Shown piece after piece: positions 5,661 through 19,801 of a stretch of 64,000 nt of DNA (the first letter of the stretch is position 1; every line of letters begins with the position of its first letter). The position numbers and the translations under genes were made by a program. Under the pieces are notes generated by a model, which saw nothing but the letters and a program-made list of their open reading frames with translations, was not told the origin of the DNA and did no database searches. Source of the stretch: an uncultured Pseudothermotoga sp. (GTDB lineage Bacteria > Thermotogota > Thermotogae > Thermotogales > DSM-5069); NCBI GenBank assembly GCA_937995655.1, contig CALKJI010000005.1, positions 62,001 through 126,000 on the forward strand, written 5' to 3'.

Positions 5661-5868
5661 CAAAACCATATTCGAACTGACAAATCAGTATCCAGAGATG
5701 ATAGAAATTCTCGCCCAAATGGGATTCATAGGTGTAAAAAATCCATTGATAAGAAACACAATTGGTCGCAAGACAACTTTGAGAGAAGGTTGCAAGAAAC
5801 AGGGAAAGGATTTAAGACTGGTAATTGAAGAGCTCCGAAAGAACGGTTTTTTCATTAAAGGTGTATAA
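5635..5868 (+). CDS. DUF1858 domain protein
   Basis: A 77-residue protein matching DUF1858: DLDKTIFELTNQYPEMIEILAQMGF, then a conserved NTIGRKTTLREGC segment with Cys, and a final helix IEELRKNGF. DUF1858 domains are often found with DUF438 or fused to hybrid-cluster and NO-related proteins in anaerobes, where they are suspected of redox or iron-sulphur cluster roles; the biochemistry is not settled. The TTG start lies inside the end of the DUF438 gene, preceded by GGGAG, indicating translational coupling. Confidence 0.8.
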   Translation: MQNKEIDLDKTIFELTNQYPEMIEILAQMGFIGVKNPLIRNTIGRKTTLREGCKKQGKDLRLVIEELRKNGFFIKGV

Positions 5869-5869
5869 G

Positions 5870-8008
5870 ATGAAAGAGTTCAAAAAGGACTTTATTGTGA
5901 TAGGCATGACCTGTGTTAACTGTGCAAGAACTGTGGAAAAATCTTTGAAAAAGATTGATGGTGTAAGGTTTGCCGCGGTTAACCTTGCAACCTCGACTGG
6001 CTTTATCGTTGCGCAGAGGGAAATATCCTTTGATGAGATCAAAAAAGCTGTTCAATCAGTTGGTTATGATGTTTCCTTGGAAAGATCAGAAGATTTAGAG
6101 AAAAAAAGATATATTCAAGCAAGAAACGATCTTTCACTTTCACTCTTGATTTCAGCTCCATTGATGATATCAATGTTCTATCAAATGTTTAAAATGCATC
6201 GTGCTCATTCTTCGTTGATAGAAGTACTGTTAGCAGGTATAGTTGTCTTCTACTGTGGGAGAAAAACTATAAGGGGAGCAGTGATTGCACTCCTTCACTG
6301 GCATACCAATATGGACACACTGATTTTTCTTGGTGCTTTTGTCTCTTGGCTGACAGGACTTTTCTCTCTGTTCAACACAACTCTTATGTCTTTTTCGACA
6401 ATCGGTGCAATGATAATTACCTTTCATCTAACAGGTAGATTCATAGAGTCGCATTTGAGAGATAGAGCAGCCAAAGAAATCAAAGAACTACTGAAGATAC
6501 AAGCAAAGGAAGCCACAGTTTTAACGCAAGACGGTGAAATCTCAATGCCAATTGAAGCAATAAAAGAAGGCTTCATAGTTCTTGTCAGACCCTCAGATAG
6601 GATCCCCGTAGATGGAACTGTTTTGACCGGCTATTCTTTTGTCGATGAATCTATGATAACTGGTGAGCCTACACCTGTGCAGAAGGGAGAAGGTGATCAA
6701 GTCACAAGTGGTTCATTGAACCTCACGGGCTTACTTAAGATAAAAGCAACAGGTGTTGGAAAGGACAGCTTCTTGTCGAAGATGATAGAATTGATTAAGC
6801 AAGCCCAAGGTTCCAAGATTCCTATTCAGGCACTCGCTGACACCATTACAAAGTGGTTTGTGCCTGCCATATTTCTCTTGGCTTTTGTTTCATCGGCGTT
6901 TTGGTACTTGAATTACGATAAATTCACCTTTATTGAAAAAATTCCATGGACGATGGGACTGAACAATCAGAGTTTTGCAATCTTTGTATTCGTCGCAACG
7001 ATTGTTATAGCTTGCCCATGCGCACTTGGCCTTGCAACGCCTATGGCTCTGATGAAAGGGACTACCCTCGCAGCAAAAAAAAGTTTATTGATTAGAAACG
7101 CGGAGGCAATTCAAACGGCAAAAGATGTTAGGGTCGTTCTTTTGGATAAAACGGGCACTTTGACTGTTGGAAAACCCGTCGTTGTGAAACACAACCTTGA
7201 TCAACAGACACTGAGGATAATTGCAGGAATTGAGAAAAGTTCGAACCATCCATTGGCAAAGGCGATTTCCCGGCTGGTTGATGATCCATTCTCAGTAGAA
7301 CAAATTGAAGAGATCGCGGGAAGTGGTGTGAAGGCGATCTACGGCGGTTCTGAGTACTTTGTGGGAAAGCCGAAAAATTTGACAGATTACGACGATTTGT
7401 TAAAGGACGCAAAAACTGTCGTAGAGGTGAGAAAGGATAGCGATGTTGTGGGGTTCATGGTTATAGAAGATCCCTTGAGAGAAGACTCACTTCAGGCGAT
7501 TGAAAGACTTAAGAAAATGAGGATTGAGAGTGTGATCGTGACAGGAGACAATGAAAAAACAGCTTCTGCTGTTGCAAAGGCCGTTGGTATAAAAAAGATC
7601 CATTCAAACGTTAAACCTGAGGAGAAACTCAGTATCGTGAGATATTATCAATCTAAGGGCATGAAAGTAGCTATGGTCGGTGATGGCATAAACGATGCCG
7701 CGGCTCTGAAGGGTGCCAATGTTGGTATAGCGATAGGTTCCGGTACAGATCTTGCAATAGAGAGTGCAGATATAATCATTTCAAAGGGTGGTGTCTCTAA
7801 GATTGTCGATGTAATAGAGATCTCAAAACTTACATTTAGAACCATAAAGCAAAATCTCTTTTGGGCGTTTTTCTATAATGTTGTGGCTATACCGGCAGCA
7901 ATGATTGGTTTATTGCATCCGTTGATTGCAGAGGTTGCTATGATAGTTAGTTCTATCACAGTCACAGTGAATTCAATGAGAATCAAGCAAAAGGAGGAGT
8001 TCTCATGA
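5870..8008 (+). CDS. copA: Cu+-exporting P-type ATPase
   Basis: A 712-residue P1B-type ATPase. An N-terminal heavy-metal-associated domain carries GMTCVNCA with Cys15 and Cys18. Then follow eight membrane helices, the actuator loop with ESMITGEP, the intramembrane CPC (residues 382-384), the phosphorylated DKTGTLT with Asp426, the HP-locus SSNHPLAKA and GDGINDAAAL. The late membrane signatures YNVVAIPAA and MIVSS fit the P1B-1 (monovalent copper/silver) subgroup rather than zinc/cadmium pumps. The ATG at 5870 is chosen since it follows AAAGGTG and leaves a short tail before the metal domain; an upstream in-frame ATG at 5825 lies within the previous gene. Function: ATP-driven copper export across the inner membrane. 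The stop overlaps the chaperone start. Confidence 0.93.
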   Translation: MKEFKKDFIVIGMTCVNCARTVEKSLKKIDGVRFAAVNLATSTGFIVAQREISFDEIKKAVQSVGYDVSLERSEDLEKKRYIQARNDLSLSLLISAPLMISMFYQMFKMHRAHSSLIEVLLAGIVVFYCGRKTIRGAVIALLHWHTNMDTLIFLGAFVSWLTGLFSLFNTTLMSFSTIGAMIITFHLTGRFIESHLRDRAAKEIKELLKIQAKEATVLTQDGEISMPIEAIKEGFIVLVRPSDRIPVDGTVLTGYSFVDESMITGEPTPVQKGEGDQVTSGSLNLTGLLKIKATGVGKDSFLSKMIELIKQAQGSKIPIQALADTITKWFVPAIFLLAFVSSAFWYLNYDKFTFIEKIPWTMGLNNQSFAIFVFVATIVIACPCALGLATPMALMKGTTLAAKKSLLIRNAEAIQTAKDVRVVLLDKTGTLTVGKPVVVKHNLDQQTLRIIAGIEKSSNHPLAKAISRLVDDPFSVEQIEEIAGSGVKAIYGGSEYFVGKPKNLTDYDDLLKDAKTVVEVRKDSDVVGFMVIEDPLREDSLQAIERLKKMRIESVIVTGDNEKTASAVAKAVGIKKIHSNVKPEEKLSIVRYYQSKGMKVAMVGDGINDAAALKGANVGIAIGSGTDLAIESADIIISKGGVSKIVDVIEISKLTFRTIKQNLFWAFFYNVVAIPAAMIGLLHPLIAEVAMIVSSITVTVNSMRIKQKEEFS

Positions 8009-8214
8009 AGTATTTGCTCTATATACCAGACATCTCATGTAATCACTGTAAGATGAGAATTTCAAAGAAGCTTGAAGAACTCGGTGTAAATTCTTATCAG
8101 ATTAGTGTCGAAACAAAGACGGTCTTTGTTGAAACAGACCAAGTGCAGAAGGTCGCGCATGAACTTTCGAAAATAGATTATCCCGTTGAAAGGTATGAGA
8201 TAGTAGAAGGTTGA
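8005..8214 (+). CDS. CopZ-like heavy-metal chaperone
   Basis: A 69-residue protein made of one heavy-metal-associated (HMA) fold. The metal loop reads ISCNHCKMRI, with the CxxC pair that binds Cu+, and the following beta-alpha-beta pattern is complete. The usual MxC is ISC here, as in several CopZ homologues. It begins in the ATGA overlap with the ATPase gene behind a strong AAGGAGG site, so the pump and its copper carrier are made together. It likely hands Cu+ to the N-terminal domain of the ATPase. Confidence 0.85.
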   Translation: MKYLLYIPDISCNHCKMRISKKLEELGVNSYQISVETKTVFVETDQVQKVAHELSKIDYPVERYEIVEG

Positions 8215-8363: not shown

Positions 8364-8392
8364 TTGACAATTGACTTTTTTATTGGTATCAT
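8364..8392 (+). promoter_or_regulatory. Promoter of the arginine operon
   Basis: A perfect TTGACA (8364-8369), a 17-base spacer and TATCAT (8387-8392). Transcription should begin near 8399, giving a leader of about 200 bases before argG. I see no convincing ArgR-type (TGAAT...ATTCA) operator around it, which would fit control by attenuation rather than, or in addition to, a repressor. Confidence 0.75.
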
Positions 8393-8421
8393 ACTTTCAA
8401 AAGTGTGGAGGGTTGTTTTTA

Positions 8422-8520
8422 ATGATATTGAGCGACTGGTGGATAAAAAAGTTCAATGAGCAGATCCTTTTGAGCATAGTCAGGCGGACCAGGTGCCGGT
8501 GGGTGCTAAGGGGCACTTAG
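8422..8520 (+). CDS. Arg-rich leader peptide of the arginine operon
   Basis: A 32-codon frame too short for normal gene calling, with ATG at 8422, TAG at 8518-8520 and a GGAGG ribosome site at 8407-8411, ten bases before the start. It lies just after the promoter. The second half reads SIVRRTRCRWVLRGT: five Arg codons at positions 21, 22, 24, 26 and 30 (AGG, CGG, AGG, CGG, AGG), four of them in six codons. The Arg cluster starts exactly where the 5' arm of a strong hairpin begins (8482). This is the layout of leader peptides of trp, his or leu attenuators, with the regulatory amino acid being the product of the operon below. Two tandem Trp codons (6-7) are outside the hairpin region. The peptide itself probably has no other role. 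Confidence 0.8.
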   Translation: MILSDWWIKKFNEQILLSIVRRTRCRWVLRGT

Positions 8521-8551
8521 TCCGCCTTTGGTCTTTATAGCACCCACACGG
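8482..8551 (+). promoter_or_regulatory. Alternative hairpins of the arginine attenuator
   Basis: Two competing helices are present. Hairpin A: AGGCGGAC (8482-8489) pairs perfectly with GTCCGCCT (8520-8527), and inside it GTGCC (8493-8497) pairs with GGCAC (8512-8516). Helix B: GTGGGTGCTA (8499-8508) pairs perfectly with TAGCACCCAC (8538-8547) and is extended by CCG (8496-8498) with CGG (8549-8551) over one bulged A. B uses the loop of A, so a fully folded A and B exclude each other (or form a pseudoknot). B ends on the first two bases of the terminator stem. A ribosome stalled on the Arg codons would cover the left arm of A and allow B; one that reaches the stop codon would cover the left arm of B. 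The pairings are read from sequence; the switching is inferred. Confidence 0.75.
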
Positions 8552-8580
8552 CCATATCAGAAATGATATGGCCTTTTTTT
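8550..8580 (+). terminator. Intrinsic terminator of the arginine attenuator
   Basis: GGCCATATCA (8550-8559) pairs with TGATATGGCC (8564-8573) over ten perfect pairs around a GAAA loop, followed by seven T (8574-8580). It lies between the leader peptide and argG, only 18 bases before the argG start, so it must be conditional for the operon to be expressed. Its two outer G-C pairs overlap helix B of the leader. Confidence 0.88.
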
Positions 8581-8598
8581 ATAGAAAGGGGGAATAAT

Positions 8599-9861
8599 AT
8601 GGTTAAGCAAAGGGTGGTACTTGCTTACAGTGGTGGTTTAGATACTTCGGTGATACTCAGATGGCTTTCTGAAAAAGGTTTTGAAGTAATTGCCTATGTA
8701 GCAGATGTGGGACAACAAGATGACTTTGATCAGATAGAACACAAAGCATTGCTAACAGGTGCAAGCAAGGTTTATATCGAGGATCTCAAAAGGGAGTTTG
8801 TGACAGACTTCATCTTCACAGCGCTAATGGGTGATGCTATCTATGAGGGAAGATATCTGTTGGGTACTTCTCTCGCTAGGCCCTTGATAGCCAAGAGGCA
8901 AGTTGAAATAGCTTCTTCAGAGAATGCCCAGTACGTTGCCCACGGTGCGACGGGAAAGGGCAATGATCAAGTAAGGTTCGAGCTCACCTACGCTGCTTTG
9001 GCTCCTCAGTTGAAAGTCATCTCGCCGTGGAAAGATCCAGAATTCCTTGCACAGTTCAAAGGAAGAACGGATCTGATAAATTACGCAAAGCAAAAGGGCA
9101 TACCAATCAAAGCCAGTGTACAGAAACCTTACAGTGAAGACGAGAATCTAATGCATATATCTCATGAAGCTGGGATGCTTGAAGATCCTTCAAAGAGGGC
9201 AGATGAATCTGTCTACAACAGAACGGTTTCACCGAAAAATGCCCCAGATGAGGAAACACTTTTAGAGATCCATTTCAAAAACGGCTTGCCAACAAAAGTT
9301 ATAAATCTCAGCGATGGTACACAAAAGGAGGACCCGCTTGAGTTGTTTGAGTATCTCAACAAAGTTGGTGGGCAAAATGGTGTGGGAAGGGTAGATATGG
9401 TAGAGAATAGATTCATTGGTATAAAGTCACGCGGAATCTACGAGACACCTGGCGCAACAATCTTGTGGGTAGCACATAGAGATCTTGAGGGCATAGCGAT
9501 GGACAAAGAGGTCATGCACCTGAGAGATATGTTGATTCCAAAGTTTTCCGAACTCATCTACAATGGCTTTTGGTTTTCTCCCGAGATGGATTTTCTACTT
9601 GCAGCCTTCAGGAAATCTCAGGAATCTGTTGATGGCGCGGTGACAGTTTCCATCTACAAAGGTAATGTGATGCCCGTGAGCAGGTATTCCCCGACATCTT
9701 TGTATGATCAGAATCTTTCGAGCATGGACGTAGAAGGTGGATTTGACTCAACAGACTCAAAAGGTTTTATAAACATTCACTCGATCAGATTGAAAGCCCA
9801 CAATCTTGTGCTTAAACAGAGAGATCCCTTCGCGTGGAGAAGGGTGATAGCAAATGCCTGA
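8599..9861 (+). CDS. argG: Argininosuccinate synthase
   Basis: Joins citrulline and aspartate with ATP to argininosuccinate, the next-to-last step of arginine synthesis. The 420 residues are of normal length. The N-terminal [16 protein letters not shown] is the ATP-pyrophosphatase loop, followed by [15 protein letters not shown] and SPWKDPEF, all typical. The ATG at 8599 is chosen because AAAGGGGGAA lies just before it; an in-frame ATG at 8563 falls inside the terminator hairpin. This is the first structural gene behind the attenuator. Its stop overlaps argH by eight bases. Confidence 0.97.
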
Positions 9862-11050
9862 GAAACTGTGGCACAGGGGCTATGAGCTTGACCAGTTCAT
9901 AGAAAGGTTCACGGTTGGTAAAGATTACATAACAGACATGGAATTGATCAAATACGACACCATCGCATCAATAGCCCACGCAAAAATGCTTTCAAAGATG
10001 GGGTATATTACACAAAAAGAACTTGAACAAATAAAAGATGCGCTTGAGGAACTGCTTCTTTTGGTTGAACAAGGGAAATTTCAGATAAAACAAGAAGACG
10101 AGGATTGCCATACGGCAATAGAAAATTTCTTAGTGCAAAAACTTGGTGAAACGGGTAAAAAAATCCATACTGCAAGATCAAGGAATGATCAAGTCCTAAC
10201 GGCTTTGAGGCTTTATTACAAAAATCAACTCAGGGAAATTCAAAAACTCGTTGAAGAGCTAATCAAAGCGACGATTGATTTTTCTAAGAAATATGGAAAG
10301 ATCACTTTTGCCGGTTTTACTCATACAAGAAAAGCTATGCCCACGAATTTTCAGACTTGGTTTGCGGCATTGCGTGATGCACTCAGAGATGATTTGAAAA
10401 TTCTGAAGATTGTTTATGAGTTGATTGATCAATCTCCTTTGGGTACAGGTGCAGGATATGGAATACCTATTCCTATAAATAGGAAATTCATCGCAAAAGA
10501 GCTTGGGTTCAGGAAAACCCAGCAAAATTCTATCTATACACAACTGAGTAGAGGGAAATTCGAATATCTCATATTGCACTCTCTTTCACAGATAAGTTAT
10601 GACTTGAACAGATTTTCAAGTGATATCATCTTCTTTTCTCTACCAGAAATTGGGTACTTGAAGATACCAAAAGAGCTGTGCACAGGAAGTTCAATTATGC
10701 CGCAAAAACTCAATCCGGATCCTTTAGAACTTGTCAGAGCGTACCACAACAGGATCGTCTCTAAGACCGTTGAATGCGCTATGATCTGCACCAATTTGAT
10801 AACAGGATATCACAGGGACTTTCAGCTGTTAAAAGAGATAGTTATGGAGAGCTTTCAAATCTTGAAGGATCTTCTCTCTGTAATGAAAAGAATTCTTGAA
10901 AGACTTCAGGTCGACAAGGAGAATTGTTCCAAGAGTTTGACAGAAGAAGTTATGGCAACTCATAAAGTCTACGAACTTGTGAAAGATGGTGTACCGTTCA
11001 GGGATGCTTACAAGAAAATAGCGGCTGAGTATGGTGGTGATGAGGAATGA
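9854..11050 (+). CDS. argH: Argininosuccinate lyase
   Basis: Splits argininosuccinate into arginine and fumarate; member of the fumarase/aspartase superfamily. Readable are the [15 protein letters not shown] segment and the signature [18 protein letters not shown] with the catalytic Ser in the mobile loop. At 398 residues it is shorter than the common 450-470, mainly at the C-terminus, but it ends in a normal ATGA overlap with argC, so this looks like the lineage's natural form rather than a truncation. It begins inside the end of argG. Confidence 0.95.
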
Positions 11051-12072
11051 AAAAGATAAGAGTTGGAATAATCGGAGCAACCGGTTACACTGGGTTGGAA
11101 CTTGTCAGAATCTTGAAGAACCACCCACACGTCAATATAACCTATCTTGCGTCCAAAAGTTTTGCTGGAGAGCCAATGAATCAGCATTTTCCATTCATAA
11201 CCGGGAAATTCATGCTTGAAGAGATCGATCTTGAAAAGATCAAAAGCAACTGTGATGTACTCTTCACAGCACTACCATCTGGGGCGAGTTATGAGCTTAT
11301 TAAAGAACTTGAAGGTATCAAAGTCATTGACCTTGGTGCTGATCTGAGATTTGATGATCCCTCTGTTTATGAAAAGTGGTATTCAAAGAAACCCCTAGAT
11401 TATGATGAAAAGAAACGAGCCTACGGGTTGGCCGAACTGTACAGAGATCAGATCAGGCAAGTAGATTTTGTTGGAAATCCTGGTTGCTATCCAACATGTG
11501 TTTTGCTTTCATTGGCTCCAATTTTGAGACAAAATCTTTTGAGCGGGAAAGAAATTGTTGTGGATGCCAAGTCCGGTGTTTCTGGGGCTGGCAGAAAGCA
11601 AGAAGTGGAATATTCCTTTTGTGAAGTTGATGAAAATCTCAGGGCATACAACCCGATCGTCCACAGGCACGTACCCGAGATAGAAGAACAGGTGAAAAAA
11701 CTCTCTGGCGAGGAAATTAGCATCACTTTTGTACCACACTTGGTCCCGATGATAAGAGGTATATTGACCACAATCTATTTGAAGACAGATTTAACAGCAG
11801 AAGATGCAAAAAAATTGTACTGCGAATTCTACAAAAACGAAAGATTCATCCACATACTCAAGCCTGGTGTTTATCCTTCTACTAAATGGAGTTACGGAAC
11901 TAATCATGTGTTCATTTCTTTTGTCAAAGATGATCGAACTAACACCCTGGTTCTGATGGGTGTTCTAGACAATCTTGTAAAGGGAGCCTCTGGTCAAGCA
12001 GTACAGAATATGAATATTCTCTTGTCTTTGCCAGAAGATACTGCGCTTGAGATCAATCCCGTTTATCCATGA
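11047..12072 (+). CDS. argC: N-acetyl-gamma-glutamyl-phosphate reductase
   Basis: NADPH-dependent reduction of N-acetylglutamyl phosphate to the semialdehyde, third step of ornithine synthesis. The Rossmann motif GIIGATGYTGLELVRIL is at residues 6-22, the active-site cysteine is in VGNPGCYPT near residue 146, and VSGAGRK and HRHVPEIEEQ follow. Length (341 aa) is typical. ATGA overlap with argH. Confidence 0.97.
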   Translation: MKKIRVGIIGATGYTGLELVRILKNHPHVNITYLASKSFAGEPMNQHFPFITGKFMLEEIDLEKIKSNCDVLFTALPSGASYELIKELEGIKVIDLGADLRFDDPSVYEKWYSKKPLDYDEKKRAYGLAELYRDQIRQVDFVGNPGCYPTCVLLSLAPILRQNLLSGKEIVVDAKSGVSGAGRKQEVEYSFCEVDENLRAYNPIVHRHVPEIEEQVKKLSGEEISITFVPHLVPMIRGILTTIYLKTDLTAEDAKKLYCEFYKNERFIHILKPGVYPSTKWSYGTNHVFISFVKDDRTNTLVLMGVLDNLVKGASGQAVQNMNILLSLPEDTALEINPVYP

Positions 12073-12085
12073 AAGGAGGTAGAGA

Positions 12086-13281
12086 ATGGTTTTAAATGTA
12101 CCAAGAGGTTTCAAGTTTGTGGGAATCAATTGTGGAATCAAGAAATGCAAAAAAGATCTTGGTATAGTCTACTCAGAAAAGGAATGCTTGGCTCATGGTA
12201 TGTTTACAAGAAACTTAGTCAAAGCATCACCAGTGATATACGACATGAAATTGCTCCAAGAAAACCCCCGACTCATAAGAGCAATAGTTGTCAACAGTGG
12301 TAATGCCAACGCTTGTACGGGCGAAGAAGGCATGAAAAACACAGTGAGGATGGCAAAAAAGGTGGCTGAGAAACTTGGGCTTGAAGACAAAACTGTCCTT
12401 GTGTCATCAACGGGCGTGATCGGTCTACAGCTACCCATCGAGAAAATAGAAAGCGGTATAGAAAGAGCAGTTAATCTATTAACAGATGATCCAATACAAT
12501 TCGCAGAGGCAATAATGACTACAGACACAGCCATCAAAATCAGTTATAGAGAATTAGAGTTGTCAGGAAAGAATGTTAGAATCCTCGGAATTGCCAAAGG
12601 CTCAGGAATGATCCATCCGAATCTTGCCACAATGCTTTCATTTCTTTTCACAGACGCGAAGATCTCATATGATGCTTTGAAAAAGCTCCTTGAAAACGCC
12701 GTTGACAAGAGTTACAACATGATCGACGTTGATGGTGACACCAGTACGAATGATACTGTGATAGTGCTCGCCAATGGACTGGCTGAAAACAAAGAAATCG
12801 TTGAGGGCACAAGGGATTACGAAGATTTCCGTTCAGCTTTCGATGAAATCAACGTTGAACTTGCTAAGAAGATGGTGGAAGATGGTGAGGGTGCGACAAA
12901 ACTTATCCAGGTTGAAGTGATAAATGCTGCTGATGAAAAAACAGCAAGAAAGATTGCAAGGAGCATAGTGTCGTCAAATCTTGTAAAAACTGCAATCTAT
13001 GGTGAAGATGCCAATTGGGGAAGAATTATCGCGGCAGCGGGTTATTCAGGTGCAGTTTTCGATGTTGGACAACTGACTCTTTATCTGTCTGATGGCTACC
13101 GGAAGGTCAAAGTCTTCGAGAAAGGTCAAGGCATTCTTTTCGACGAAGAAATGGCAAAGCAAATTTTGAGTTCCACGAGAGTCTTTTTAACGATCGATTT
13201 GAATTTTGGAAACTCTCGGGCTGTTGCCTGGGGTTGTGATTTAACTGAAAAATATGTTCAGATCAATGGGAGGTATCGAAC

Positions 13282-13285
<4 letters not shown>
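12086..13285 (+). CDS. argJ: Glutamate N-acetyltransferase (ornithine acetyltransferase)
   Basis: Recycles the acetyl group from N-acetylornithine to glutamate, and in bifunctional forms also makes acetylglutamate from acetyl-CoA. The self-cleavage site AT-ML occurs in HPNLATML, with Thr182 as the new N-terminal nucleophile of the beta chain; [11 protein letters not shown] and SSTGVIG are also present. 399 residues, normal length. The start follows AAAGGAGG. With argJ in the operon no argE is needed. Whether it is mono- or bifunctional cannot be told from sequence alone. Confidence 0.96.
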
Positions 13286-16473
<3,188 letters not shown>

Positions 16474-19400: not shown

Positions 19401-19801
19401 GTTTTGATATTTATGCGACCAATGGTACGGCAAGAACTCTGAATTCTGTGGGCATACCAGCAAAGTATGTGCCAAAGGTTGGAGAAGGAAGGCCAGATGT
19501 GATCGATTTGATTGAGCAAGGTAAGGTGGACTTGGTGGTCGTGACTCAGTCACCAAACACTATCAAAAACACTCCAGTTGACAGAATTGGAATGAAAGCA
19601 CCACTGAATTTTGAGGACAAGCGCACCGTGGGTTACAGAATAAGAACTGCAGCGGTGAAGAATAAAGTACCATATATTACAACGATTGAGGCTTTCAGTG
19701 CAGAGACTGCCGCCATTAGAAAATCAAGAACAAACAACATCTTGAATGTGAGAGACCTAAAGAAGGTTCATTCGCAAGGAACTGGGAGCATTGATAGCTG
19801 A
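16478..19801 (+). CDS. carB: Carbamoyl-phosphate synthase, large subunit
   Basis: Makes carbamoyl phosphate from bicarbonate, ammonia and two ATP. The 1107 residues show the internal duplication: [19 protein letters not shown] in the first half and [18 protein letters not shown] in the second, each followed by an ATP-grasp domain ([15 protein letters not shown] and [15 protein letters not shown]). The last 140 residues are the MGS-like allosteric domain ([13 protein letters not shown]) where UMP and ornithine bind in E. coli. The ATG at 16478 follows ACGAGGTGATC. It is the last gene of the operon; no clear terminator is visible before recJ. Confidence 0.97.

Follow-up and report, generated by a model that had tools for sequence, protein, structure and literature searches.

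An arginine-rich leader upstream of the argGHCJBD-carAB cluster in Pseudothermotoga: a probable ribosome-mediated attenuator with related leaders in the Thermotogota

Within the 64,000-nucleotide stretch of Pseudothermotoga DNA analysed here (the window), positions 8364 to 8598 very probably act, to judge from the sequence, as a transcription attenuator of the argGHCJBD-carAB cluster that is ribosome-mediated and specific for arginine. This reading, which the preliminary description had proposed, is supported by the anatomy of the leader, its conservation, the co-evolution of its helices and the match between codons and genes. The cluster lies on the forward strand and opens with argG (8599 to 9861, an NCBIfam equivalog assignment), followed by argH (9854 to 11050), argC (11047 to 12072), argJ (12086 to 13285), argB (13282 to 14121), argD (14133 to 15326) and carA (15295 to 16473), and by a carB-like open reading frame ending at 19801 that was assigned by sequence and place, without a family search. 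In Pseudothermotoga elfii, RNA-seq has recorded joint over-expression of argGHCJ at 30 and 40 MPa (PMC10057702). The upstream neighbours of the leader, at 5867 to 8214, encode a copper-type P-type ATPase and then a separate 69-residue protein in which SCNHCK resembles a CxxC metal-binding motif.

The leader places a short translatable frame with its own ribosome site between a promoter and the first structural gene, all on the forward strand. The promoter is of the sigma-70 type (TTGACA-17-TATCAT with an extended TG, 8364 to 8392, 11 of 12 matches), and similar boxes lie upstream of the leaders of two relatives, G009 and G010. A ribosome-binding site, GGAGGG, is read from the sequence at 8407 to 8412; a Shine-Dalgarno-like match of 3 to 7 bases likewise stands ahead of each leader frame listed. 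The frame itself, MILSDWWIKKFNEQILLSIVRRTRCRWVLRGT, runs from the ATG at 8422 to a TAG at 8518 to 8520 and has 32 codons, with Arg at codons 21, 22, 24, 26 and 30. The first four of these lie in the control stretch AGG CGG ACC AGG TGC CGG (8482 to 8499), so that Arg codons are clustered ahead of the switch, as they are in relatives that carry RRR or RRTR; the first Arg codon stands 13 nt ahead of the start of the antiterminator. An intrinsic terminator with a 10-pair stem (8550 to 8573), a 4-base loop and seven T (8574 to 8580) precedes argG, whose ATG at 8599 lies 18 bases past the T run. The promoter, the ribosome site, the 32-codon Arg frame, the two mutually exclusive helices and the terminator that had been described for this region were each verified base by base.

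The predicted fold provides the alternative pairings. Residues 8482 to 8489, within the Arg codons (arm A), pair with 8520 to 8527, just after the stop (arm C), to give a pause or anti-antiterminator helix that spans 8482 to 8527 and encloses an inner hairpin of 8491 to 8497 with 8512 to 8518. The antiterminator (8495 to 8552) joins segment B, 8495 to 8508 (GCCGGTGGGTGCTA), to segment D, 8538 to 8552 (TAGCACCCACACGGC), with A8548 bulged. Its last pairs involve the GGC in the 5' arm of the terminator, and the two helices thus exclude each other. Both the overlap of the Arg codons with the left arm of a hairpin and the exclusive second helix, as first described, are therefore present in the predicted fold. 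The full leader folds as the Arg-codon helix, the inner hairpin and the terminator. When the 5' part is withheld, which mimics a stalled ribosome, 8495 to 8508 is predicted to pair with 8538 to 8547, and when the terminator 3' arm is absent the antiterminator gains the pairing of GCCG (8495 to 8498) with CGGC (8549 to 8552). With the complete terminator present at equilibrium, the terminator persists and the antiterminator loses its overlap pairs, even without the Arg-codon arm; antitermination would therefore have to be kinetic. These folds were computed at 37 °C for a thermophilic host. Against dinucleotide shuffles the fold gave z = -4.0 for 8399 to 8580 and z = -5.0 for 8490 to 8580, with none of 200 shuffles folding as well in either case. 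Chance is excluded mainly because eight other genomes have the same frame, Arg codons, helices and terminator ahead of argG.

Given the size of ribosome footprints, stalling at the first Arg codon would leave the antiterminator free, and a ribosome at the stop codon would cover its 3' part. We infer that the switch would operate through stalling on uncharged tRNA and a kinetic win of the antiterminator. With charged tRNA-Arg plentiful, the ribosome would pass the Arg codons, reach the TAG at 8518 and sit on the 3' part of B (8495 to 8508), blocking the antiterminator; the terminator at 8550 to 8573 would then form and transcription would end ahead of argG. With charged tRNA-Arg scarce, the ribosome would stall at the first Arg codons (8482 to 8487) with its leading edge near the start of B, and would keep the Arg codons from pairing with 8520 to 8527. 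B, thus freed, would pair with 8538 to 8552 once this segment is transcribed, draw the GGC away from the 5' arm of the terminator and let RNA polymerase continue into argG. If there were no translation at all, the Arg-codon helix and the inner hairpin would sequester B and the terminator would form.

We searched for ArgG in the family and the phylum and found the gene in 33 genomes. Eight other Thermotogota carry a leader before argG, six of them in the same family, f1 (G002, G004, G005, G008, G009 and G010), and one each in f5 (G012) and f9 (G029). The operon of the Petrotogaceae-like family f10 starts with argJ, and an RRR leader of the same kind precedes that gene in six genomes (G045, G046, G047, G060, G061 and G062). 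In a further group argG is present, but neither the leader nor ArgR was found (G011, G097, G098 and G100 to G102; loci L010, L013 to L015, L023 and L025). A second match in the source genome (C4:117528, E 0.05 to 0.09) was rejected as a leader. The argG leaders retain the Arg cluster and a stop shortly past the start of the antiterminator, and the terminator CGGCCATATC..GATATGGCC is invariant in all nine. The exact terminator pattern, when sought in genome contigs, was found mostly in unrelated bacteria and in two Thermotogota (matching G010 and G012), and the terminator sequence alone is thus not diagnostic. Spacing is kept as well: in every Arg biosynthetic leader the first Arg codon lies 13 to 16 nt ahead of segment B, and in the argG leaders the stop codon lies 23 to 26 nt past the start of B. 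Among the leaders listed for the wider set described below, the first control codon is 11 to 29 nt ahead of the antiterminator, the largest values arising where the residue counted stands earlier or is less securely a control residue. The window leader, G009 and G010 share the peptide pattern KFNEQ..SIVRRTRCRWV..G(T/A)-stop; outside the KFNEQ core of these three closest leaders synonymous and nonsynonymous changes are about equal, and codon-level selection is not decisive.

The alignment of relatives that had been suggested as a check was favourable, since the small frame, the Arg codons and the stems are kept with compensatory changes. The permutation and covariation tests ignore shared ancestry. 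In permutations, cognate B and D arms form stronger duplexes, on average, than non-cognate ones (-20.5 versus -15.5 kcal/mol; 0 of 100,000 permutations), as do A and C, the Arg-codon arm and its partner (-11.2 versus -7.3; 1 of 100,000). When 39 distinct leaders were aligned to the covariance model R2 described below, an alignment fitted to the very structure under test, 94.8% of cells were paired, two-sided changes were seen at 12 of the 16 pairs, with every one of the seven antiterminator pairs among them, and the covariation score was 0.33 against 0.12 for shuffled alignments (0 of 500); sliding the structure gave no more than 0.12. The mutually exclusive antiterminator is thus conserved by compensatory change. 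It shows in the triple formed by B, the terminator 5' arm and the terminator 3' arm, in which GCC/GGC/GCC is replaced by GCT/AGC/GCT in one sub-group (L149, L150 and L153) and by ACC/GGT/ACC in another (L158 and L159), with both alternative pairings kept each time. In the close family the Arg-codon helix is strong and its arms co-evolve; in G029 and G012 it is weak, and an inner hairpin would have to sequester the antiterminator in those two. That the region is an ordinary constitutive terminator or a readthrough control, beside an open reading frame that arose by chance, has practically no probability: the bare CGGCCATATC..GATATGGCC does occur in other bacteria, but the frame, the codons and the alternative helices are conserved in relatives, the helices co-evolve and the codons match the genes.

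ArgR represses arginine genes in Thermotoga. The preliminary description had taken such regulation as its premise, and the premise does not apply here, since the leader-bearing genomes lack ArgR. PF02863 was found in eight of 103 Thermotogota genomes, all within the Thermotoga-like family f3, and had no match in the source genome or in any leader-bearing genome, the T. maritima control being positive; the cluster thus cannot be counted as part of an ArgR regulon. The argG upstream regions of the eight ArgR genomes, where read, have no leader. It is extremely unlikely, then, that ArgR represses argG and that the terminator is incidental. Thermotoga-like members of the phylum do have the repressor, but ArgR and the argG leader occupy different genomes, and repression would leave the conserved frame, helices and codons unexplained. 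Where ArgR is missing, an Arg leader ahead of the complete arg-carAB cluster points to the way in which arginine synthesis is controlled.

Two covariance models were used to search the phylum. R1 was built from nine argG leaders with the Arg codon region included, and also matched leaders ahead of non-arg genes. R2 was built from seven f8 leaders, from the antiterminator onward and without the codon region; it was restricted to one sub-group because MAFFT put GGTGG in the wrong place when all leader types were aligned together. R2 matches (E up to 0.1) occur in 51 of the 103 Thermotogota genomes, and 33 of the 40 match regions inspected contain a leader frame together with an amino-acid, peptide or citrate-synthase gene. 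The weak matches L172 to L178 (E 1.7e-4 or worse) showed no leader-gene pairing and were taken as chance, and that in L176 resembles a tRNA gene.

The codons of these leaders change with the gene. HHHH or HHH stands before hisZGD in the Thermotoga-like f3, in genus g4 of f1 and in G012; the His leaders L154 to L160 (G089, G091, G092, G095, G096, G003 and G005) have the same scaffold and occur also in the Thermotoga-like family that has ArgR. KK..K precedes dapF or lysC in f8, and WWW a TrpB-like gene in G049 and G050, where R1 found it. NNNNN (in KFNNNNNPLDI) precedes the asparagine synthetase A gene asnA in G022 (L170, minus strand, upstream of 2962), a single case with an R2 E-value of 2.2e-5. 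Mixtures of R, K and H stand in f8 and f10 before transporters for basic amino acids, namely solute-binding-protein-3 transporters and amino-acid permeases, and RR.HR before oligopeptide-binding proteins. The leaders IIYVVLIL and VVYIVLIL, which precede a Xaa-Pro-dipeptidase-like amidohydrolase and a peptide-binding protein in f8 (L103, L149, L150, L153 and L180), suggest control by branched-chain amino acids. NNQPEP (NNQPEPK) stands before citrate synthase-aconitase genes in genus g32 of f10 (L161, L163, L165 and L168) and may sense Gln, Glu or Pro. The g32 antiterminator differs, as read from the sequence: a leader copy of GTGTGGCC is able to pair with the terminator's GGCCACAC, and given this difference the members of the set may not all be of common descent. 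Counted over clear biosynthetic genes with one leader per genus and gene, and with gene classes and target residues assigned after the loci were seen, there were 50 target codons where permutations, which again ignore shared ancestry, gave 18.9 (0 of 200,000), and 27 when Arg leaders were left out (237 of 200,000). Leu-Asn or Asn is often found just ahead of the control cassette whatever the amino acid (LNNDRRR, SLNWWW, INKKHH and LNIRRR, for example in L092, L107, L143 and L011).

A metabolite-binding riboswitch or a protein-bound RNA that senses arginine directly, with the small frame incidental, would fit the strong conserved structure and the terminator. We regard it as highly improbable, because the codons track the amino acid of the gene (R, H, K, W or N) while the scaffold stays constant, a correspondence through the genetic code that a binding pocket would not show; moreover, ribosome sites precede the frames, and their stop codons lie close to the antiterminator. 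Rfam holds no leader or riboswitch family that matches the window leader or the set at the gathering score, and a search of the 103 Thermotogota genomes for T-boxes (RF00230) with stricter filters detected none, the controls being positive; the window leader itself does not match that family either. Nascent-peptide arrest by free arginine, as in the fungal arginine attenuator peptide or TnaC, is very unlikely. Some peptide conservation does extend beyond Arg (KFNEQ and CRWV in f1, LN before many cassettes), but the control cassette alone tracks gene function phylum-wide and the remaining peptide varies freely, and an arginine-induced arrest would have the wrong sign for a biosynthetic operon.

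Decoding of the control codons by a translating ribosome is the reading that we retain, and it probably extends beyond arginine. We consider it likely, with less assurance than for the window leader, that the Thermotogota possess a homologous, modular class of ribosome-mediated attenuators in which codon cassettes have been exchanged in evolution on one antiterminator/terminator scaffold (Arg, Lys, His, Trp, Asn, probably branched-chain and glutamate-family residues), and in which mixed Arg-Lys-His cassettes would pool several tRNA signals for transporters of basic amino acids. With its scaffold shared and its codons exchanged, the set amounts to a natural experiment: the identity of the codons predicts which gene is regulated, and the leaders can therefore help to annotate transporters. 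They also imply that thermophiles keep transcription and translation closely coupled.

Leader-peptide attenuation is a long-known mechanism, elucidated through work on enteric bacteria and Actinobacteria. The window leader resembles the his, trp, leu and thr leaders of Proteobacteria and the trp and ilv leaders of Actinobacteria in its control codons, its exclusive hairpins and its terminator before the first gene. It differs from them in being specific for arginine, in occurring in Thermotogota and in matching no Rfam family; in addition, the Thermotogota scaffold is common to leaders that together cover at least five amino acids, and ahead of transporters codons for Arg, Lys and His occur in one leader. 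Our searches of the open-access literature turned up no account of leader-peptide attenuation in Thermotogota, whether of an arginine attenuator, in agreement with the preliminary description, or of such a modular set. Thermotoga ArgR also concerns arginine synthesis in the same phylum, but it is a DNA-binding repressor. The speF leader of Salmonella is likewise reported to take up different mRNA conformations depending on arginine, but the gene behind it encodes an ornithine decarboxylase and does not serve arginine biosynthesis (PMC6386406). Upstream frame motifs of Proteobacteria, such as uORFC-8-2 before cysS, are also attenuators predicted by comparison from conserved codons; in the accessible part of that study each such motif concerns one gene in one group, and none is a Thermotogota arginine motif (PMC8632094). 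A functional parallel is the T-box of Firmicutes (RF00230), which similarly combines one scaffold, an exchangeable specificity the size of a codon and a tRNA-charging signal, and serves amino-acid genes and transporters; in the Thermotogota leaders, unlike the T-box, this specificity would reside in codons translated by the ribosome.
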